Virus record (IMG/VR): IMGVR_UViG_3300012944_000064
Span: 1 to 22,817 of that record
From: a virus
DNA: 22,817 bases
Reading direction: 5' to 3' (one strand)
Below are positions 10,640-22,200 of the stretch, piece by piece. The position numbers and the translations under genes were made by a program. Every line of letters begins with the position of its first letter. The first letter of the stretch is position 1. The notes beneath the pieces were generated by a model. The model was not told the DNA's origin, searched no databases, and worked only from the letters and a program-made list of their open reading frames with translations.

Positions 10640-10652
10640 CGGATGCCCGGCG

Positions 10653-10940
10653 ATGAGAAAAACCATCAAGCCCCGAATCCCGCGCGAAGTGCCCAGCAAG
10701 ACGCTGCCGATGGTGATCCTCGCGGTGCTGCTGGTGATCGTGCTGGTCATCGCCAGCGTCATCGCCATCCGCCAGGCGCGCGCGCAGGGATTGAACGTCT
10801 GGACCATCACCGTCATCGGGCAGGACGCCGAGCTGGGCACAGTCACGTTGCGGCTGGAGGACCTCGAGGCCCTGGTGCGCGGCTTCAACCGGCGCGGCGA
10901 CGAGCTCCAGGAGCTCAACACGGTCACGGGGTGCACATGA
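10653..10940 (+). CDS. Small single-pass membrane protein of the lysis cassette
   Basis: A 95-residue protein with a basic N-terminus (MRKTIKPRIPREV), one strong membrane helix at about residues 18-42 (TLPMVILAVLLVIVLVIASV) and a roughly 50-residue soluble tail ending in GCT. It is probably N-in/C-out. It overlaps the amidase start as ATGA, so a lysis role (spanin-like or auxiliary holin) is possible, but the tail is shorter than in most inner-membrane spanins and I see no overlapping lipoprotein gene. A purely structural role is not excluded. The ribosome-binding site is weak. Confidence 0.6.
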   Translation: MRKTIKPRIPREVPSKTLPMVILAVLLVIVLVIASVIAIRQARAQGLNVWTITVIGQDAELGTVTLRLEDLEALVRGFNRRGDELQELNTVTGCT

Positions 10941-11482
10941 GCCGCGCCATCAGCCATCTCGTGATCCATTGCTCCGCCAGCCCCAACGGCCAGGCGATCA
11001 CGCCGCGCGATATCGACCGCTGGCACCACGAACGCGGATTCCGGCGCGCCATGGCGTTCCGCGATCTCCTCAATCTTAATCTGGAGGCGATCGGCTATCA
11101 CTTCGTCGTGATGGTGAACAGCCTGGTCGCCACCGGCCGGCATCTCGAGGAGATCGGCGCGCACGTCCAGGGATCGAACGCCCATTCCATCGGGATCTGC
11201 ATGGTGGGCACCGATCACTTCACGCCGCCGCAGTGGGCGGCCCTGGCCGGACTGGTGACGGCGCTGCGCAAGGACTACCCGGCGGCCCAGGTGCTCGGCC
11301 ATCGTGATTTCTCGCCGGACATCGACGGTGACGGTGTGGTGGAGCCCTGGGAATGGATGAAAACCTGCCCGGGATTCGAAGTGGCGGACTGGCTCGCCGG
11401 CGGGATGGTGGCGCTGGCTGACCACTTGCTGGTCCCGGCGGCCGCCAATGAATCACCGGCCGCGGCGGAAGGGGGTGCGTGA
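10937..11482 (+). CDS. Endolysin: T7 lysozyme-type N-acetylmuramoyl-L-alanine amidase
   Basis: A 181-residue zinc amidase that cuts the bond between N-acetylmuramic acid and L-Ala of peptidoglycan at host lysis. The amidase_2/PGRP pattern is clear: SHLVIHCSASPNG (zinc ligand His11), GYHFVV (Tyr54, equivalent to the catalytic Tyr), VLGHRDFSPDIDGDG (His122) and KTCPGF (Cys144). There is no signal peptide, so release should depend on the holin encoded next. The C-terminal 30 residues are Ala-rich and carry no wall-binding domain. The start is ATG 10937, overlapping the upstream stop; an open frame extends back to 10643 but that part is unlike amidase. The stop overlaps the holin start. Confidence 0.92.
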   Translation: MSRAISHLVIHCSASPNGQAITPRDIDRWHHERGFRRAMAFRDLLNLNLEAIGYHFVVMVNSLVATGRHLEEIGAHVQGSNAHSIGICMVGTDHFTPPQWAALAGLVTALRKDYPAAQVLGHRDFSPDIDGDGVVEPWEWMKTCPGFEVADWLAGGMVALADHLLVPAAANESPAAAEGGA

Positions 11483-11979
11483 TGGCGCCGCTGCTCGCCA
11501 TTGCGTTGCAGCTCGCGCCGATGATCCCCGGCGTCGCCAAGCTCCTGGCCGGCGACAAGGCGGAGGAAGTGGCCAAGACGGTGGTGGAAGTCGCGGAGGC
11601 CGTGACCGGCACCACCGGAGACAAGGTGGTGGACGCGCTCAAGGCGAACCCGACCCTCTCGCTGCAATTCCAGCAGCAGATCATGCAGCACCAGCTGGAC
11701 TGGTTCAGGACCGAGGTGACCGCGCAGCGCGACGTGATCATCGCCGAAGCGCAGAGCGAGAGCTGGATCACCAAGAACTGGCGGCCGCTCACCATGCTGA
11801 CCTTCACCGCGCTGGTGGTCGGCAAGTGGATGGGCTGGACCGCGCCGGGCGTGACGGCAGAAGTGGAGATGCAGCTGCTCGAAATAATCAAATTCGGGCT
11901 GTCCGGCTACGTCGTCGGGCGCTCGGCGGAGAAGGTCGCGCCGTATCTCGCGACCATGTTCAAGAACAGGGGATCCTGA
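11482..11979 (+). CDS. Holin of the 3TM superfamily (gene transfer agent holin type)
   Basis: A 165-residue protein beginning with a hydrophobic helix MAPLLAIALQLAPMIPG, then an Ala/Val/Glu helix region, a polar coiled middle (FQQQIMQHQLDWFRTEVTAQ), the family signature SESWITKNWRPLTMLTF (about 90-107) followed by a membrane helix TALVVGKWMGW, and a last hydrophobic segment near LEIIKFGLSGYVVGRS. This layout fits the 3TM holin family that permeabilises the inner membrane so the endolysin can reach the wall. ATG 11482 follows GGAAGGGGG; GTG at 11479 is an alternative. It overlaps genes at both ends. Confidence 0.8.
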   Translation: MAPLLAIALQLAPMIPGVAKLLAGDKAEEVAKTVVEVAEAVTGTTGDKVVDALKANPTLSLQFQQQIMQHQLDWFRTEVTAQRDVIIAEAQSESWITKNWRPLTMLTFTALVVGKWMGWTAPGVTAEVEMQLLEIIKFGLSGYVVGRSAEKVAPYLATMFKNRGS

Positions 11980-12538: not shown

Positions 12539-13753
12539 ATGCCACAAGCACGCCTTTCCCAATTCATCGGCCAGTCGGAGGTCACCTACCGCACCGCGCC
12601 GGCGGCGGCGGCGAAAGTGATCCCGATCACCGAATTCGATTCGATGCGTGATGCCCGCCGGCAGGCGAACACCAGCGTATCGACGCGGCCGCTGGCGGAC
12701 AAAACCGACAAGGGCGATCCGACCTTCGGCGGACCGTTCAAGTCCATCTTCGAGCTGCGCGCGATCGGCTTCTGGCTGAAGCTGCTGCTGGGCAATCCCA
12801 GCGTGGGCAAGGCGGTGACTACGCAGCCGGTCAACGTCACCGGCGTGTCGGTGAACTACGCCTCGACCGACTGCACCGCCGGCAACGGCACGCTGGCGTT
12901 TACCTTCGCCGGTACCACGGTCACCTGGATGCCGCAGGGCGGATCCGCGGGGACGGCGGTCAACATCGGCGCCGGCGGCAATTTCACCGTGCAGGGCGGC
13001 GGTGGCGGCAAGAGCGTGAACATCTCGGTCACGGCCGCGGCGCTGCCAGGCACGAACCAGAACGATGCCACGATCAGCGTGCATGCCACGCTGAAGGCCC
13101 ATGCTTTCCCGTTCGACCTGGCGGACCGGCCAAGCGCGCTGATCGAGCGCCAGGAGCCGGATATCGCGAAATACCACCGCTTCCTCGGCGTCAAGGTGCC
13201 GGAGCTGTCCTGGGATCTGATCGCCAACGACCAGGTCCTGAGCGGCCGCCTGATTCCGGCCATCGAGGTCGATCCGATTCCCTCGACGCCGTTCGATGCG
13301 GCGCCCACGAGTTACGGCGCCTATGTCCGCGCCTGCGCCGGCGGCGGCAGACTGTGGGACGGCAGCGGTACCGGCCTGGGCACGATCCTCGGCGGCACGG
13401 TCGGCTTCGACAACAAGATGACGCCGGAGACCGCGCCGGACGGTCTCGACGGCTATGGCTACGTCGGCCAGGACGAAATGGTGGTAAAGGGCACGCTGCG
13501 CACGGTGTTCGATGGCGCCGGTGCTTATGCGCTCGCGCGCGCGGGCACCAGCACACGCCTGCGACTGCAGACCACGGCGGTGGTCGGGGCGGACACCTTC
13601 GGCGTGTTCGCGGATTTTCCCGCGGTGGAGCTGGTGGAGAAGCTGCCGCCCCGCAGCGGCAAGAGCGGACTCATCGCCACGCTCGACTGGATGGCGCACA
13701 ACAACGCCACCGTCCCGTCGATCTGGCTGGTCAACGACGTCGCGGCCTATTAG
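12539..13753 (+). CDS. Major tail tube protein with an inserted extra domain
   Basis: A 404-residue protein called the tail tube subunit from its position (after terminator, before the chaperone pair and tape measure) and composition: beta-rich with patterns such as SIFELRAIGFWLKLLLG, LSWDLIANDQVLSGRLIP and VVKGTLRTVFDG. Tube proteins of this type bind the tape measure and stack as hexameric rings. Residues about 93-182 form a Gly/Thr/Asn-rich beta segment (QPVNVTGVSVNYASTDC, then AGNGTLAF) inserted in the body; a related copy is in the tail tip protein. It may project outward as a decoration domain. ATG 12539 has GAGGAG six bases upstream. Confidence 0.75.
   Translation: MPQARLSQFIGQSEVTYRTAPAAAAKVIPITEFDSMRDARRQANTSVSTRPLADKTDKGDPTFGGPFKSIFELRAIGFWLKLLLGNPSVGKAVTTQPVNVTGVSVNYASTDCTAGNGTLAFTFAGTTVTWMPQGGSAGTAVNIGAGGNFTVQGGGGGKSVNISVTAAALPGTNQNDATISVHATLKAHAFPFDLADRPSALIERQEPDIAKYHRFLGVKVPELSWDLIANDQVLSGRLIPAIEVDPIPSTPFDAAPTSYGAYVRACAGGGRLWDGSGTGLGTILGGTVGFDNKMTPETAPDGLDGYGYVGQDEMVVKGTLRTVFDGAGAYALARAGTSTRLRLQTTAVVGADTFGVFADFPAVELVEKLPPRSGKSGLIATLDWMAHNNATVPSIWLVNDVAAY
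12815..13084 (+). repeat. Domain shared with the tail tip protein, copy 1 (tail tube)
   Basis: Residues 93-182 of the tube protein align with residues 373-470 of the tip protein. Shared blocks in order are VTTQPVNVTGV / VTQQPTNVTGV, STDCTAGNGTLAF / NSDCAAGNGTLEY, W-P-GG-G, a GG-rich stretch, and VTAAALPGTNQNDATI / VTKTALPVAPTSDNDITI. I compared them by eye. The DNA is also related in places (for example around GGCAAcGGcACGCTG), which suggests common descent rather than chance. Confidence 0.8.
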
Positions 13754-13758
13754 CGGCG

Positions 13759-13789
13759 GTGAAGAGTGAGGTGTGAGAGGTAAAAACCG
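13759..13789 (+). repeat. GTGA heptamer array in the tube-chaperone gap
   Basis: Three seven-base units, GTGAAGA GTGAGGT GTGAGAG, are followed by GTAAAAACCG. The same layout (three GTGA-type heptamers then GTAAAACCG) recurs at 18808-18838. The array lies between the tail tube stop and the AAGGAG (13792-13797) of the chaperone gene and is not translated. Confidence 0.7.
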
Positions 13790-13805
13790 TTAAGGAGTGT
13801 TGAAA

Positions 13806-14171
13806 ATGGAAAAAATCAAACTGTCGCTGAAACCGCTGAAGCCAGCGCGCTGGGAGACGCATGAACCCACCGGCGTGAAATTTCTGATCGCGCCCCTCAT
13901 CGGAGAGGAGGACCAGGATCTGACCGATCAATCCAGCAACATGATGGGCGTGGTGAACCCCATGCAGTTCGCCCGCCTCGCGGCCCCGAAAGTCCTGCGC
14001 GACTGGCAGCACGTCAGCGACGCCAACGGCACGGCCGTTGCGTGCAATCCGGAGAACATCAAGGAATTCGTCACCCATCATGGCGTGACCATCATGCCGT
14101 GGGTGATCCGCCGCGCCCGCTCGATCGACCACTACCGCACCGCGGAGGTCGAGGAAGCAAAAAAAGACTGA
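13806..14171 (+). CDS. Tail assembly chaperone, short form (lambda gpG analogue)
   Basis: A 121-residue protein from ATG 13806, with AAGGAG (13792-13797) eight bases upstream; GTG 13797 overlaps that site and is unlikely. It lies between tail tube and tape measure, the place of the gpG/gpGT pair that coats the tape measure during tail assembly in long-tailed phages. The sequence opens with MEKIKLSLKPLKPARWE and includes FLIAPLIGEEDQDLTDQ and a helical C-terminus. The last codons, GCA-AAA-AAA-GAC-TGA, form a -1 slippery site, and the overlapping frame encodes the extension. Assignment is strong from this combination. Confidence 0.85.
   Translation: MEKIKLSLKPLKPARWETHEPTGVKFLIAPLIGEEDQDLTDQSSNMMGVVNPMQFARLAAPKVLRDWQHVSDANGTAVACNPENIKEFVTHHGVTIMPWVIRRARSIDHYRTAEVEEAKKD
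14159..14165 (+). promoter_or_regulatory. Programmed -1 frameshift slippery site A AAA AAA
   Basis: Seven A residues are phased as A-AAA-AAA in the gpG-like frame and followed by G, a canonical X XXY YYZ heptamer. A short stem, TGACG/CGTCA with a seven-base loop (14169-14173 with 14181-14185), begins three bases downstream and may stimulate slippage. The -1 frame then reads AGA-CTG-ACG onward without a stop to 14488. Confidence 0.85.
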
Positions 14172-14488
14172 CGGCCCGCGCGTCATGGGAGATCTCGCTC
14201 GGATGGAGCTACATCAACGAAATCCGGAAAGCGGGTCGTCAGGTGGATCCGCAGGACCTCCCGCCGGATCTGGGGTGGGAAGCGCCGGTGTGGACCCTGT
14301 ATTGCCGGATATCCAGTCAATGGCGTGTGGGCTTCGGCGGACGCGTCGGGCTGGATTACGGCGTTGCGCTACCGCTGATCGAAAAGCGCGGCTGGAAAAC
14401 GGAACTCGCGCTCGATCTGTTGAGGGCGATCGAGTCCACCTATCTGGAATTGGACGAGAATGAACGAGAGCGAACGCGTCGGCATTGA
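14165..14488 (+). CDS. Tail assembly chaperone frameshift extension (lambda gpT analogue)
   Basis: The -1 frame after the slippery site codes for about 107 residues beginning RLTARASWEISLGWSYINE and including WTLYCRISSQWRVGFGG and GWKTELALDLLRAIESTY. It has no plausible start of its own, so it is expected only as the C-terminal part of a fusion of about 227 residues (13806-14165 joined to 14165-14488). In lambda the T part of gpGT contacts the tail tube protein. It overlaps the tape measure start by 29 bases. Confidence 0.85.
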   Translation, partial: RLTARASWEISLGWSYINEIRKAGRQVDPQDLPPDLGWEAPVWTLYCRISSQWRVGFGGRVGLDYGVALPLIEKRGWKTELALDLLRAIESTYLELDENERERTRRH

Positions 14489-16832
14489 CATCACGACCAC
14501 CTACTCGGGGAAAGGCACCGAGGCGGCGCGCCGCGACCTCCGTTCACTCGATCAGGAGGTTCAGGAAGTCGCGGGGCAGATGAAGCAGATGGCGTCGGCC
14601 TCCGATGCCACGAACAATTCATGGGGGCGTCAGGAGAGCGCCCTCAATAAGCTGGACGAGGAGCTGGAGAGTTTTCTGACCGTTTCCGACAAGAGCTATC
14701 GCGCGCAGCGGCAGCTCGACACCGGGAACGATCTCCTTTTCCGAAGCCTGAATGCGGGACTCATCACCCAGGAACAACACGATACGCTGCTTGAAAGGCT
14801 GTCCCAGAAATACGGTGCTGCGGCATCGGGCGCGCAGCAGCTCGGGAGAGCGAGTTCCAGCACGGCGCGCGAGATGGCAACGCTGGGGCGGGCGTTAGCC
14901 ACTGGCAACCTGGAACAGGCGGCACAAACATCCGGCGTACTCGCCGTGCGCGTGGGCGGTATCGGAATAGCGGGCATCGCCGCCGCCGGTGGAATCGCCG
15001 CGGTGGTTGGAACGCTCGCGCTGCTGATGGCCGAGCAGGAGCGTTTCGACCGTTCCTTGAACCGCATCAACGCAATGATCGGCGCAACCGGCCGCGAAGT
15101 GGCGCTCACCCGTTCGGAGATCCAGGCGCTGGTCAAAGACATCGAACAGCTGCCAGGCATGAACCGCGCCGGCGCGCTCGAGGTGGTGGGGGCGTCCGGC
15201 GGCCAGGGACTGAACGAGGACCTGTTTCGTCGCATCACCCTGCTCGCCAACGATTTTGCATTCGCCACCGGTCGCACCGCTCCAAAGGCGATGGAGGAAC
15301 TGGCCAAAGCTGCCCAAGGTGGCGGCAAGGAACTGTTGAAACTGGATGAAAACTACAAAATCCTCACGCTCGATCAGTACCAGTCCATTCAACAGTTCAT
15401 CAAGCAAGGCGATGCGGTTCAGGCGGCGGGGGTATTCCTGGCGGCCTACGAGGCGCGGCTGAGCGGGCTCAGGGGATCGGCCATGACGCCGCTGGAGGCG
15501 AGCGTAGACCGCCTGGGCAATGCGTGGACCGGGCTCACCGAACGCATGGGCAGCGGCGGTGGACTGGAGACGGCCGCCGATCGGCTGGCGAGGATCACCA
15601 AAGGGCTGTCATGGTTGATCGACAATGCGGAGACCCTCGGCAGGCTGACGATGCCGGGCGCCGCTTTGTCCTTCATTTTCTCCGGCAGCGCGAAAGGAAA
15701 CGATGAAGAAGCCGAATGGGAGCGTCGCGCCGCGGCTGCGAGGAAAAGAACGGCCAATGAAGGTGCGGAACGCAAGCGATTGGAGACGCAAGGAATCGAT
15801 CATGACAAGGCGCAAGCTGAGCAGGATGACAACGTAAGGAAGTTTCTCGACCAGAAAGCGAAGGAAGCCGACGCGAAGGCCAAACAAGAGTCGGAGCGGC
15901 GGGGCCGCGAAGCGCTTGCAGGCCATCTCACCGGCATGAAGTTCGAGCAGGACACGCAGGCCGAGATCGACAAGGCTGTGGCCGATATGCAAAAGCGGCT
16001 GAAGGCACGCGAGTACTACGAAAACATCTATGGCGAGGATATCACTACCGGTAAGACCACCGAGGAACTCGCCGCCTATCACAAGCAACTGCTTGAAGGC
16101 ATAGACGCACAGGCCGAGATAGAAGAAAACCTGATGCGCCTCAATGCCGGTTTCGACGAGCACGGCAAGGAGGTCAAGGCGGTGGGCGACGAGTATAAAG
16201 ACCTCAAGTTCGCCGTGGAGGGATGGGGCCGCGACAGCTCGCGCGCCCTGGCCAAGGCCGCCCTGGATGGCAAGATGAGCTTTGACACTCTAGGCAGCGC
16301 CGCCCGCCGCTTCGCCGAGGATCTGCTCGCAATCCAGATCCAGCGCTCAGTCATGGACCCCTTGCTCAAGGGCGCGACTGCCTATCTCGGCGATCTGTTC
16401 CGCGGCGGCGGCAGCGGTGCACCCGCACCGGAGGCCGATCTCACCGGTTCCTATGCGGAGATGGCGGCGATGGGATTGCCCTATCACACGGGCGGCATCG
16501 TCGGGGACAACCGCCCCGGGCGTTCGGTGGCGCCGTGGGTGTTCGACAACGCGCCCCGGTATCACCGCGGCGGCCTGGTCCAGGACGAGGTGCCGATCAT
16601 CGCCCGGCGCGGAGAAGAGGTGCTGACGGAGAACGACCCCCGGCACCGGAACAATGCCGGACCGCGCAACGTGCGCGTGGAGATCGTCAATCAGGGCGCG
16701 CCGCAGGAAGTGGTCTCCGCGCAGCCGAAATTCGATGCTGAAGGCATGGTGATCCAGATCGTCACCCGCGATCTCACCAACGGCGGACCGATCCGGTCTG
16801 CCGTGCAGAGTCTGGTTAAACCGATTCGATAG
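14460..16832 (+). CDS. Tail tape measure protein
   Basis: A 790-residue protein that sets tail length and may enter the host envelope with DNA. It starts MNESERVGIDITTTYSGKG, followed by long charged helices (20-120), a Gly/Ala/Ile membrane-like segment at about 160-190, a globular or helical region to 400, a very charged Lys/Glu/Ala helix (about 415-560), and a C-terminal part with VEGWGRDSSRALAKAALDG like the lambda H C-terminal domain, then Gly/His/Arg motifs HTGGIVG and YHRGGLVQDEVPIIARRGEE typical of tape measures. The usual rule of about 0.15 nm per residue would give a tail near 120 nm. The start lies inside the chaperone extension frame with only a weak ribosome-binding sequence. Confidence 0.9.
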   Translation: MNESERVGIDITTTYSGKGTEAARRDLRSLDQEVQEVAGQMKQMASASDATNNSWGRQESALNKLDEELESFLTVSDKSYRAQRQLDTGNDLLFRSLNAGLITQEQHDTLLERLSQKYGAAASGAQQLGRASSSTAREMATLGRALATGNLEQAAQTSGVLAVRVGGIGIAGIAAAGGIAAVVGTLALLMAEQERFDRSLNRINAMIGATGREVALTRSEIQALVKDIEQLPGMNRAGALEVVGASGGQGLNEDLFRRITLLANDFAFATGRTAPKAMEELAKAAQGGGKELLKLDENYKILTLDQYQSIQQFIKQGDAVQAAGVFLAAYEARLSGLRGSAMTPLEASVDRLGNAWTGLTERMGSGGGLETAADRLARITKGLSWLIDNAETLGRLTMPGAALSFIFSGSAKGNDEEAEWERRAAAARKRTANEGAERKRLETQGIDHDKAQAEQDDNVRKFLDQKAKEADAKAKQESERRGREALAGHLTGMKFEQDTQAEIDKAVADMQKRLKAREYYENIYGEDITTGKTTEELAAYHKQLLEGIDAQAEIEENLMRLNAGFDEHGKEVKAVGDEYKDLKFAVEGWGRDSSRALAKAALDGKMSFDTLGSAARRFAEDLLAIQIQRSVMDPLLKGATAYLGDLFRGGGSGAPAPEADLTGSYAEMAAMGLPYHTGGIVGDNRPGRSVAPWVFDNAPRYHRGGLVQDEVPIIARRGEEVLTENDPRHRNNAGPRNVRVEIVNQGAPQEVVSAQPKFDAEGMVIQIVTRDLTNGGPIRSAVQSLVKPIR

Positions 16833-16841
16833 GAGAAAACA

Positions 16842-17810
16842 ATGCCCGTCACCGTCTATAAATCCACCGATGGCAGTGCGCCAGCACTCAACGGCAATGC
16901 GGGCTCGCTGTGCACGGTGCTGGACGCCATTCTGGTGAACGGCTACGGCGCGAAGGCTCCCGCGGGCTGGGCCATTCCCTTCACCGGCACCAATAAGCGC
17001 ATTTACCGGGCACCGAGCGGCGCACTGCGTGGTTATTACCGGGTGCAGGATGATGCGCCACGAGCCGCTCCTTTCGCGGATGCCCGCGAGGCCCGAATAA
17101 AGGGTTCGGAAGCGGCCTCGGCGATCGACACGCAGACCAACTTGTTTCCGACCGCCACCCAGCTGGGCAACGGGTTGTTTCCCCGGAAGTCGATTACTGC
17201 GGACGGCACGGCGCGTCCGTGGGTGTGCGTGGCCGATGCCAGGACGATGTATTTCTTTGCCATGACGGGAGACTACGTCGGGTACGCCGCGTTCATGATG
17301 GGGGAATATTATTCCCTGAAGTCATCGGCCGATAACTTCAACGGCATGGTGATCGGCCGTAACATCGAGCAGATCGCCGCCACACCGACACCGCTGCCGG
17401 CGCAGGAAGGGCTGCACGTGCTGTCCGTGTTGTCCGTTGCCGGTGCGGGCCACTACGTTCCCCGGTCCTACCAGGAGGCAGGCGCTTCTGCCGTGAACCT
17501 GGGTAAGCACGGTAGTGGAGCGCACTCACTGGCAGGGCTGTTTGGTCTCGCCCAGTACCCCAACCCCATTGATGCGGGACTGTATTTGGCGGCTGTATGG
17601 CTGCACGAGCCATCGGCTGTTGGAATCTTGCGCGGCCGCCTCCGCGGCTTCTGGCATTTCCTGCATCCCGTCGGCTCCGGGGTGAACGATGGCGATACCT
17701 GGTCCGGATCCGGGCCGCTGGCCGGCAAGAGCTTTATCGCGATCAAGCCGACTGCCGATGGCCTCGGCATGTTCGTGATGGAAACGTCGGACACCTGGGA
17801 AACCAACTGA
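16842..17810 (+). CDS. Uncharacterised tail-region structural protein
   Basis: A 322-residue protein with AGGAG (16831-16835) six bases before the ATG, the G of the tape measure stop TAG (16830-16832) falling inside it. It is rich in Gly, Ala and aromatic residues and looks beta-sheet rich and soluble: MPVTVYKSTDGSAPALNG at the start, WAIPFTGTNKRIYRAPSG, GYYRVQDDAP, and MYFFAMTGDYVGYAAFMMG in the middle. There is no signal, coiled coil or enzymatic motif I recognise. Position between tape measure and the M-like gene points to a distal tail or tip role. Similar proteins of unknown function occur in other siphoviruses as far as I recall. Confidence 0.75.
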   Translation: MPVTVYKSTDGSAPALNGNAGSLCTVLDAILVNGYGAKAPAGWAIPFTGTNKRIYRAPSGALRGYYRVQDDAPRAAPFADAREARIKGSEAASAIDTQTNLFPTATQLGNGLFPRKSITADGTARPWVCVADARTMYFFAMTGDYVGYAAFMMGEYYSLKSSADNFNGMVIGRNIEQIAATPTPLPAQEGLHVLSVLSVAGAGHYVPRSYQEAGASAVNLGKHGSGAHSLAGLFGLAQYPNPIDAGLYLAAVWLHEPSAVGILRGRLRGFWHFLHPVGSGVNDGDTWSGSGPLAGKSFIAIKPTADGLGMFVMETSDTWETN

Positions 17811-18322
17811 TGGCTGCGCTCGGCGCGATCGGCAGCCAGGGGTCCGTCGGCGCGGGCGCTGCCGCGGCTGCGCCTTCCGGCGGGGCCAGCAGCATCGGGC
17901 TCGCCGCCCGCGTGGTGCTGACGATCGGCACCTGGTTGAACGTCATTCTTCCGGGGCAGCTGCCGGCCACGTTCCCGGACTATCCGATCCTGCTCTTTCC
18001 GGGGTTCACGGAGAAGCCGGATCCCGTGGTGCGCCGCACCGATATGGAGTCCGGCCCGCCGAAGCAACTGACGCGCTCGGCCCGGGCGATGGTGAAGCGG
18101 CCGGTTAGCTATCTGATCGTCTCCAAGACCGACAAGGACAGTTTCATGACGTGGTTCAACGTCGCGATCAACCGCGGCGCGGACTGGTTCAACTGGCTCG
18201 ATCCCTACGACGGCGTGGTGAAGCCGGCGCGCATTGTCGGCGGCGCGCTGGATCCGAAGCCGCAGATCAAGAGCCTCACCCGCTGGGTGATCGCGTTCCA
18301 GATCGAGACCTGGAGCGGCTGA
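17810..18322 (+). CDS. Lambda gpM-like minor tail protein
   Basis: A 170-residue protein starting at ATG 17810 in a TGATG overlap (an open frame extends further upstream but is not needed). The N-terminal 40 residues are Gly/Ala/Ser rich. The core has RRTDMESGPPKQLTR, a strand-rich part with SYLIVSKTDKDSFMTWFN, NRGADWFNWLDPYDG and a C-terminal WVIAFQIETWSG. The WF-DPYDG and terminal FxIExW pattern and the order M, L, K, J-like genes fit distal tail proteins at the start of the lambda tip set. It probably links the tape measure end to the tip complex. The subfamily is uncertain. Confidence 0.65.
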   Translation: MAALGAIGSQGSVGAGAAAAAPSGGASSIGLAARVVLTIGTWLNVILPGQLPATFPDYPILLFPGFTEKPDPVVRRTDMESGPPKQLTRSARAMVKRPVSYLIVSKTDKDSFMTWFNVAINRGADWFNWLDPYDGVVKPARIVGGALDPKPQIKSLTRWVIAFQIETWSG

Positions 18323-18325
18323 GGC

Positions 18326-18799
18326 ATGCCGAAGAACTACACCGCGAACTTCAAGGAAAAAACCGGCTCGACCTCGGGCGAGGAGCCGGTCTATCTGCTG
18401 GAGATCACGCATCCACAGCTCGCGCAGCCGGTGCGCGTGGTCAGGGACACCGACAACCTGGTCTCGAACGGCAACACCTTCATCGCCCTGGATTTCGATA
18501 TCGCCCTGCCGGATGACGTGCAGGGCAAGCTGCCGCGCGCGCCGATCCGGATCGACAACATCGGGCGCGAGCTCACGCAGTGGCTGGATGGATCCAAGGG
18601 CGGCAAGGGCGCGCAGGTTCGCATCATGCAGGTCATGCGCAGCGCGCCGGACCTGATCGAGTATGAAATCACCACCGACCTGCTGCGCGTGCGCCAGGAC
18701 GGCGGCTACATCAATGGCGAAGTCGGCTACGAGGACACGCTGAACGTGCCGGCGTTGCTGGCGACGCAGCGCCCGGACAACCAGCCCGGCATCTTCTGA
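18326..18799 (+). CDS. DUF1833-type (lambda gpL-like) minor tail protein
   Basis: A 157-residue protein matching the DUF1833 family in layout: VYLLEITHPQLAQPVRVVRD, a following NLVSNGNTFIALDFDIALPDD, LPRAPIRIDNIGRELTQWL and a C-terminal LLRVRQDGGYINGEVGYED with LNVPALLATQRPDNQPGIF. It follows the M-like gene by three bases and precedes the K-like peptidase, the position of gpL in lambda. Lambda gpL binds an iron-sulfur cluster with cysteines in its C-terminal half; this protein has no cysteine, so such a cluster is not expected here. Confidence 0.75.
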   Translation: MPKNYTANFKEKTGSTSGEEPVYLLEITHPQLAQPVRVVRDTDNLVSNGNTFIALDFDIALPDDVQGKLPRAPIRIDNIGRELTQWLDGSKGGKGAQVRIMQVMRSAPDLIEYEITTDLLRVRQDGGYINGEVGYEDTLNVPALLATQRPDNQPGIF

Positions 18800-18807
18800 T
18801 GCCGGGC

Positions 18808-18838
18808 GTGATGAGTGATAGGTGATAGGTAAAACCGC
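18808..18838 (+). repeat. GTGA heptamer array before the tail peptidase gene
   Basis: Units GTGATGA GTGATAG GTGATAG are followed by GTAAAACCG. This is the second copy of the pattern seen at 13759-13789. The third unit contains the GTG start codon (18822) used for the K-like gene, so the array spans the gap after the L-like stop and the first codons of the next gene. Confidence 0.75.
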
Positions 18839-19220
18839 TGCGCACTGGTCGGAGGCGTATCTCGGCATGCCGTACGTGCCGGGTGCGTTCGACTGCGCCG
18901 GACTGGCGGAGCTCGTCAGGCGCGAGGTATTCCGGCACGGGCTCACCCTGCCGTCCGATCGCCGGCCGGGTCCGTTCGGCCGCAACGCGCAGATCCACGA
19001 GAACCTGGCCGACTTCGCCATCCGCACCGAGACCCCGCAGGACGGTGATGGCGTGCTGATCATCGCCCGTGGCCGCCTGCAGCACATCGCGATCTATTGC
19101 CTCATTGGGGCCGAGCCGTGGGCGCTGCACAACATCGACAAGTCCAGCGTGCACCGGATCCGCGTGCGTGAGCTGGAGAAATGGAATTACCGGATCGAGG
19201 GGTACTACCGGTGGATTTAA
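18822..19220 (+). CDS. NlpC/P60-like tail tip peptidase (lambda gpK analogue)
   Basis: A 132-residue cysteine peptidase of the NlpC/P60 type, likely part of the tail tip and able to cut peptidoglycan peptides during infection. The catalytic set is visible: FDCAGLAELV (Cys25), LQHIAIY (His88) and ALHNIDK (His103, possible third polar residue). The start is awkward: the only in-frame start covering the first helix HWSEAYLGMPYVPG is GTG 18822, which lies inside the heptamer array and has no good ribosome-binding site. ATG 18867, with GGAGG 13 bases upstream, would remove part of the conserved fold. The gene overlaps the next one by ten bases. Confidence 0.85.
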   Translation: MIGKTAAHWSEAYLGMPYVPGAFDCAGLAELVRREVFRHGLTLPSDRRPGPFGRNAQIHENLADFAIRTETPQDGDGVLIIARGRLQHIAIYCLIGAEPWALHNIDKSSVHRIRVRELEKWNYRIEGYYRWI

Positions 19221-22200
19221 GCGAGGTACAAGGCGCAAGGTTCAAGGCTCAAGGTACTGCCTTGATTCCTTCGCGGTCGCCGGTGCTGGCCTATTCGCCG
19301 CACCCGCTCATCCCGTCGCTGGACCGCGAGGTCATCCGCGCCGAGCTCTATCCGGGGGAGACGCTGGGCGGCTACCTCGAGCGCGTGGGGATCTGGACAC
19401 GGATTCACAACCGGCCGGTACGCGTGACCATCAACGGCGTGGTGGTGCCGATCGAGTGGTGGTGGCGCTGCCGGCCGAAGCCCGGCACGTTCATCCAGGT
19501 CATGGCCGTAGTGCATGGCGGCGGCGGCAGCGGCGGTAAAAACCCGATCGCGACGGTGCTGATGATCGCGCTGCTGGTGATGGCACCGCAGCTTGCGCCT
19601 ATATTGAATACCGAGCTGGGCCTTGGATTCGCGGCTGGCAGCATAGGAATGTCTGCTCTCACCGCAGGCGTAATGATCGCCGGCAGCCTCGCCATCAACG
19701 CGCTGTTCCCGCCGCCCAAGCCGCAGCTCTCGGATGCGCAGGGGCGCTTCGGGCAGACCTCGCCGACCTATTCCCTGTCCGGCGGCGCAAACCGGATGCG
19801 GCCGTTCGAGCCGTTCCCGGTCATCATGGGCGTGCACAAGATCTTCCCGGACCTCGGCGCGAAACCCTTTACCGAATTCCAGGGGGACGATCAGTTTCTC
19901 TTCATGGTGTTCGACTTCGGCTACAACGACGTCGACCTGTCGGATTTCAAGATCGGCGCGAACGCGCTCGACAGCTTCTCCGGCGTCACCCTCGAGGAGT
20001 CCGGCCCGGACGGGATCCTGACCCTGTTCCCCGGCAACGTGGACAGCGCCGCCGGCGCCGCGCTGACGTTCGCCGGGAGCTGGGTCTCGCGCACATCCAG
20101 CCCGGACGCCACCGCGCTGGCGATCGAGCTGGACGGCGCGCTGTTCAAAGCGGGCGATCAAGGGCTGGAGGCGCTAGGCCTGCTCATGGAAATCCAATAC
20201 CGGGCCGTGGGCGCGCCCGACTGGATTCCCCTGCAGTTTGCCTCCGATGAATCGCCCGCGGTCGTGACCGATTACGGCATCGCCCGACTGCCGCAAGCCT
20301 TGTATGCCGCCGAGGCGATCAAGCCGGTGACGCAGCAGCCGACCAACGTGACCGGGGTTGTCATCTTCTGCGCGAACTCGGACTGCGCGGCGGGCAATGG
20401 GACGCTGGAATACGATCTCAATCTCGGCGATCCGGAATCGGATCAGAAAATGCTGCGGTGGACCCCGCCCGGCGGTGTGCCGGGCGCGTGGAACCAGGTG
20501 GACGGCGGCCCCATCATCCTGTACGGGGACGGCGGCACCCAGGGTATCCGCATCGAAGTGACGAAAACCGCACTGCCGGTCGCGCCGACGTCGGACAACG
20601 ACATCACCATCGTCGGAGATCTGCCGCGCCTGACCGAGATCGTCAGCAGCTCACGCAAGCCGCTGCGACGTACCTATTATTTCCCGGTTGCGCAGGGGCA
20701 GTACGAAATTCAGGTGCGGCGGGTGACGCCGGAGGAGACCGGCGAGCAATCGGTTTCCCAGCTCGCGTGGGGCCAATTGCGCACCTATCAGCCCGATGCC
20801 GCGGACTACACCGGCCGCAAGCGCATCGCGCTGAAGATCAAAGCCTCCGGGCAGCTCTCCGGCACCGTCGACCAATTCAGCGCGATCGCGCGCGCCAGGA
20901 CCGAGGCCTGGGACGGGGCGAACTGGGTCACGGCGCAGACCTCCAATCCCGCCTGGTGGGTGCTGGCCGCCGCGCGCGGCCGAATCGCATCTGGTCGGCG
21001 CATGTGGGGCGCCGGCATGCCGGATGCCCGCATCGGGCTGGAGAACCTCAAGGCCTTCGGCGCGTGGTGTGACGCCAAGGCACTTACCTTCGATGCGATC
21101 TTCGACCAGCAGATCTCGGTGCAGGACATGCTGGACGCGATCGCGCTGTGCGGGCGCGGAACAACCTCCAACGGCACGGGTCGGCTGGAGGTGGTGTGGG
21201 ATGCGCCCGACCTGCCCGCGGTCGGCGTGTTCGGCATGTCCAATATCCTGCTCGACTCCTTCGAGATCGAATACATCACCGAGAACCTGGCGGATGAAGT
21301 GATCATGGCCTTCATCAATCCGGACCTGGACTGGCAGCGCGACGTGGTCAGAGTCCTGGCGCCAGGCGTGACCAACCCGGTGCGCCCGCGCAACCTGGAG
21401 TTGTTCGGCTGCCGCTTCAAGGACCTGGCCGGGCAGGCGGCCAATCTCTATATCGCCGGGAACGAGCACCGCGCCCGAAAATACCGCTGGCGCATGGACT
21501 GGGAGGCGATGCCGCTGTCGCGCGGCGAGGTGGGCTATCTTTCACACGACCTGGCGAGCTACGACTATTCCGGCCGCCTGATCGAAGGCTCGACGGACGC
21601 GGTGCTCAAGCTCGAGCGCGCGGTCCCGCTCAACGTCGCCGGCAGCTTCGTCACCCTGGTCAGGCCCGACGGCAAGTTTGCGACCTATCCCGTACAGGCC
21701 GGCACTGGCGATTCGAATACGCTCAGCATGGTCTCCGCGCTGCCGTTCAATCCGGGCGTGGATATGAAGCATCCGCCCTGCGACTATCGCTGGCTCTACG
21801 GCTACACCGCCACGCCCGGGCGCAAGGTGAAGATCGACACGATGATGCCGAAGGGGCCCAGCGTGGTGGAACTGACGGCGGTGGACGAGGGACCGGACTA
21901 CTACAACTCGGCGGCCAATCCTTATCTGCACGTCGTTCCGAAAACGATCTTCGGCGCGCCGCAGATCTCGGGCCTGCAGATTACGGAGGAGGGCGTGCGC
22001 GCCGCGCAAGGCTACCTGGTGAACGCGATCTGCACCTGGACCGCCGGCGGCGATTATGCGTTCGCGGATGTGCGCGCTTCGGTCAACGGTGGCCCGCTCG
22101 AGCGCCTGGGCGGGGACATCCGCGGCCGCAGCTTCAGCTTTGCCGTGACCGATGGCAGTGCGGTGACGGTGGAAGTGACGGCGTATTCGAGCCTCGGCCG

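Follow-up and report, generated by a model that had tools for sequence, protein, structure and literature searches.

Related binding modules are known to occur on the tail tube of a phage as well as around its tip (PMC6669499, PMC9022992). In the 936 lactococcal phages, BppA-like carbohydrate-binding modules (CBMs), which bind host cells, occur on the evolved Dit, on the tube extension TpeX and on the neck passage structure, and a phage with a related CBM on its tube extension often has one on Dit too (PMC6669499). The phage Ig-like domains (Big_1, Big_2, I-set and FN3) are dispensable and presumed to provide weak adhesion (PMC9022992, citing Fraser 2006); they are beta-rich and about 100 residues long, their carriers include proteins of the tube, baseplate/tip, fibre and capsid as well as decoration proteins, and on tubes they are non-essential and can raise infection efficiency (PMC9022992). 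The tube protein pb6 of phage T5 has its own C-terminal Ig-like (Big_2) domain (PMC9022992). At the tip of phage lambda, FNIII-A is likewise an inserted domain, within the hub of gpJ (PMC10721106).

Here we describe a domain that occurs in both the tail tube protein and the gpJ-type tail tip protein encoded in the window, by which we mean the whole 22,817-nucleotide stretch of viral DNA that was analysed. As in the 936 phages, a single virion bears one kind of module at both its tube surface and its tip region, the carriers are several, and the module is present or absent between relatives (PMC6669499). Unlike the 936 CBMs, which were shown to bind the host by means of GFP fusions and whose tube module is added by a frameshift, the window domain is a putative binding domain encoded in frame inside its carriers; its profile matched no PDB sequence, and sequence comparison detected no similarity to CBMs. 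It shares with the Ig-like domains a beta-rich make-up, a similar length and a similar range of carriers, but it is internal in both of its carriers in the window, it brings one sequence family to the tube and tip of one phage, and the Big_1, Big_2, I-set and FN3 Pfam models gave no match at E up to 1 when 12 domain members were scanned. It also differs from the Big_2 domain of T5 pb6, to which it is unrelated in sequence, in lying in the first lobe of the tube protein. The original prediction had called a domain shared by tube and tip unusual, which was overstated: the arrangement is already known in kind from other phages, while the domain family itself appears to be uncatalogued in the libraries searched.

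The carriers and the parts of each that matter here are collected in Table 1. The window tube protein itself falls below the threshold for PF18906 (Phage_tube_2) in a Pfam search; its membership of that family follows from its own phrog_290 match together with the PF18906 matches, at 56-93 bits, of the aligned tube homologues L003, L005 and L062, which are 25-53% identical to it and include tubes with and without the insert. The tip protein matches phrog_31 (central tail fiber J) at E 1.6e-102, PF24801 (FNIII-A_GpJ) and PF13550, which, together with the FNIII-A fold of its model, places it among the gpJ tips with an FNIII-A domain. Two other features of the module were noted in passing. The lysis genes, an Amidase_2 endolysin and a GTA-type 3TM holin, lie inside the structural module at window 10643-11979, with the head-tail connector genes on one side and the tube gene on the other. 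The tail assembly chaperone ORF has a seven-A run at its end (GCAAAAAAAGAC; window 14150-14175), and another ORF (14042-14488) lies in the -1 frame; this arrangement resembles a frameshift site of the lambda G/GT type.

Table 1. Window features discussed in the text, with positions, strand and basis
Feature	Position	Strand	Basis or remark
Siphovirus structural module	within the window (22.8-kb virus contig)		
Tail tube protein of 404 aa; tube fold with two lobes, plus inserted domain	12539..13753	+	phrog_290, E 6e-9
Inserted domain, tube copy, residues 89-185	12803..13093 (also placed at 12803-13114)	+	between LLLG helix end and TLKAHAFP strand
Tail tip protein, gpJ family, continues past contig end	19181..22816	+	phrog_31, PF24801, PF13550
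gpJ FNIII-A domain, N-terminal part	20000..20254	+	homologue alignments, model match to lambda gpJ
Linker (GIARLPQALYAAEAIKPV) before tip copy	20255..20317	+	similar in L009, L011, L077, L159
Inserted domain, tip copy, residues about 380-488	20318..20644	+	inside FNIII-A loop
FNIII-A domain, C-terminal part (SSSRKPLRRTYYFPVAQGQYEI...)	20645..20815	+	PF24801 match, residues 488-536

Sequence comparison confirmed that the tube and tip segments are homologous and represent one domain. By BLASTP the two are identical at 42 of 98 positions (43%; 63.5 bits, E 3e-19), and their local alignment score of 161 stands far outside the distribution from 1000 shuffles (mean 29.6, SD 5.4, maximum 54). A profile built from 21 copies on other carriers, neither tube nor tip and containing neither window copy, recovers both of these, with E 3e-25 for the tube copy and E 8e-14 for the tip copy; tube-only and tip-only profiles, each of which includes one window copy, likewise recover both. 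A search across the window found these two copies only, which lie 7.5 kb apart in one operon. The shared domain of the original prediction is thereby borne out, as are its shared blocks (QPxNVTGV, DCxAGNGTL, W-P-GG, VTxxALP and ND..I are all present); its tip numbering was about 8-15 residues too low, an offset that fits a different choice of start codon. The relatedness that it reported at the DNA level is correct though weak, at 53% identity codon by codon, and the copies are therefore neither a recent duplication nor an artefact of assembly, which we rule out.

In both carriers the domain is an insert. Tube relatives, found by the C-terminal core, comprise eight proteins with the domain and two (L062 and L063) that are 46-48% identical to the window tube and cleanly lack it. 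In the alignment, the sequence '...LLLGQPVT' of these two runs directly into 'TGTTLKTHTYP', and the other eight bear the domain at the position of this joint. More distant tubes from the order of a Rhodocyclaceae MAG (L074 and L075) have a different segment (TDGIRIGMLIKP...) in a comparable place upstream of the tube core.

In the tip protein, the FNIII-A loop that holds the domain is empty in the homologues L005, L014, L056, L060, L061 and L065. Across about 100 tip ORFs with both flanks anchored (overlapping loci of one contig being counted separately), the loop measures 0-142 residues. It is either empty or filled by a short spacer, by an unrelated insert (77-129 residues) or by this domain, which was found there in the window, L009, L011, L077 and L159; most tip proteins lack it, and the aligned homologue L002 has an unrelated insert instead. 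All five tips that have it also share the linker NGVARLP..Y..G.RK.IT.Q. A second loop insert of about 77-119 residues (YATHYWS...EHxDGE...WRWVPHP...GQPWxGIAPDP), unrelated to our domain, fills this gpJ loop in some 30 viral contigs (L119, L120, L123, L126, L157 and others), and the loop is an insertion hotspot; contents as varied as these are what is expected of an exposed, tolerant site. Since both carriers have orthologues without the insert, an explanation by which the segment belongs to the core fold of either protein is rejected, and the domain is indeed an extra one in both.

AlphaFold models agree with a separate structural unit, each copy being predicted as a confident, mostly-beta domain with six to seven strands. 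The tube model has a mean pLDDT of 76 with the domain mostly at 83-95, and the model of a 272-residue tip fragment (20000-20815) has a pLDDT of 79 with the domain mostly at 87-97. Compared with the tubes of P74-26, SH-Ab15497 and T5 (pb6), the tube model adopts the tube fold, with VIA Z scores of 19-22 over about 265-304 residues. The tip fragment aligns with residues 90-209 of lambda gpJ, the FNIII-A domain that corresponds to the carrier of the tip copy, at Z 10.6 and 2.7 A over 116 residues; these 116 residues are the FNIII-A part of the window model, and the lambda segment is too short to accommodate the inserted domain as well. The structural matches of these models that fall on the domain alone are weak, to FlgK (4ut1; Z 6.6, 77 residues, 2.7 A) and to a sheath protein (3lml; Z 5.1, 88 residues, 3.2 A); with Z scores too low to decide for or against an Ig-like beta-sandwich topology, we claim no fold family.

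The same domain recurs on other virion proteins. Phage_tube_2 tubes with the domain were found in L002, L003, L005, L014, L060, L061 and L065-L068, and in another four prophages from the order to which the Rhodocyclaceae MAG belongs; sampling more widely around that MAG, over its class and phylum, yielded no additional genome with it. The likely hosts of the window phage are beta-proteobacteria related to Rhodocyclaceae. Outside the window, gpJ tips bear it in L009, L011/L012, L077 and L159, fibre-like proteins of phrog_11439 in L006, L008 and L013, and capsid-decoration-like proteins of phrog_1731 in L015 and relatives, the one in L053 adjoining the major head protein; phrog_13135 proteins and an unclassified 263-aa protein (L007) complete the list. 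In the group of a Nitrospirae MAG the domain is present in 11 of 24 genomes, the MAG itself counted, and four prophages of this group carry it twice, at a spacing of about 7 kb, with a decoration-like protein and a phrog_13135 protein as the two carriers. A divergent copy, a weaker but independent match at E 3e-9 to a phage-only profile, lies in a multiheme MtrC/MtrF-like cytochrome of 931 aa from the same group (L054:6726-9518, + strand), which also has a PKD domain, and the domain family may therefore extend beyond phages. Isolated phages gave no match: five domain copies, run by tblastn against 50,697 phage records, returned nothing at E 0.01, and the L014 tube at full length matched weakly in two cases, both outside the domain. 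Pfam, PHROGs and PDB sequences contained no match covering the domain, no known domain family to which it could be assigned and no sequence relative of known function. This family of about 95 residues thus appears to be uncatalogued in those libraries, which is not to say that it has never been seen.

How did one phage come to hold two copies? The original prediction proposed that the module had been copied within one tail operon, and the two copies do lie in a single operon, with no other record found, the window excepted, in which the domain is on tube and tip together. Such a duplication, from tube to tip or the reverse, is nevertheless very improbable. The window copies agree at fewer than half of their protein positions and, as noted, scarcely more at the DNA level, whereas the window tube copy is 57-66% identical to the tube copies of L005 and L002. 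In the tree, copies group by carrier protein, with 6 changes as the minimum and none of 200 shuffles as low; the nearest neighbours of the window tube copy are the tube copies of L002, L032 and L005, and the window tip copy forms a clade with those of L009 and L011, supported at 99/96 with three tip copies (38 rows) and at 88/77 once two very divergent tip copies were added (five copies, 40 rows). Forcing the window copies to be sisters lowers the log-likelihood by 20 with either set, and the AU p value is 0.013 with 38 rows, weakening to 0.073 with 40. The tree alone is therefore suggestive but not final, and the better argument against duplication is that the tip copies of different phages share both the insertion loop and the linker. 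Presence of the domain does not track similarity of the tip core to that of the window, as L060 (70%) and L005 (67%) lack it and L009 (64%) and L011 (53%) have it, so gain or loss must have happened more than once. In seven other records with a readable domain-bearing tube and a readable tip, the domain is on the tube only, which means that tube and tip copies are not coupled; the fragmentary records of L009, L011, L077 and L159, which have the tip copy, yielded no Phage_tube_2-like tube. The two window copies are best read as two separately held inserts.

As to function, we somewhat favour the reading that this mostly-beta domain of about 95 residues is a mobile one of the virion surface and that its two copies provide outward-facing, weak patches for binding the host or the environment. 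From the insertion sites and the models, both copies probably face outward, and the common trait of the carriers is plausibly exposure on the virion surface. Weak, multivalent adhesion to the host surface is the most likely function, by analogy with the 936-phage CBMs and the Ig-like domains of tubes. The copies in the tube-protein loop would hold the virion loosely at the cell surface while the tip seeks its receptor, and those in the FNIII-A loop of the gpJ-type tip would add avidity beside that receptor. There would be roughly 80-90 copies on the tube and 3 at the tip, as estimated from a 790-residue tape measure at about 1.5 A per residue and 40-A rings of 3 subunits (two-lobed, T5-like). 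The lack of coupling between tube and tip copies in the seven other records counts against this reading, as does the conservation, which is strongest at residues (P, N, T, G, W, L and D) that look structural and unlike a binding site. A bolder version, which we regard as possible though doubtful, takes the movement of the family among head-decoration, tube, tip and fibre proteins, and its presence on a multiheme outer-membrane-type cytochrome, to mean one shared ligand-binding module, with which a phage holding at least two copies would cover its particle in receptors for one and the same surface polymer.

The same conserved positions fit a structural spacer or stabiliser without a ligand, packing on its neighbours between rings on the tube and against gpI/gpL at the tip. 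The tube insertion sits in the core lobe, the inserted Ig-like domain of YSD1 wraps adjacent tube subunits (PMC9022992), and lambda FNIII-A contacts gpI via beta-strand augmentation (PMC10721106). Yet the tubes of L062 and L063 and most tip proteins manage without the domain, and it occurs in at least five different carriers with no common packing partner, so we consider this role unlikely. That the domain is largely neutral, a promiscuous segment that illegitimate recombination carries from one virion gene to another and that exposed loops tolerate, without selection for any function of its own, would agree with its patchy occurrence among the tips compared above; its retention over great divergence, in 8 of 10 tube-core relatives and in nearly half of the genomes of the Nitrospirae MAG's group, makes this a distinctly unlikely account.

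With this domain, a component of the virion surface that is missing from Pfam and PHROGs is now defined, together with clean pairs of presence and absence for both tube and tip. The natural tube and tip orthologues that lack the insert make the role of tube decorations directly testable, and marking the gpJ FNIII-A loop as a hotspot for unrelated surface inserts helps the annotation of tip proteins.
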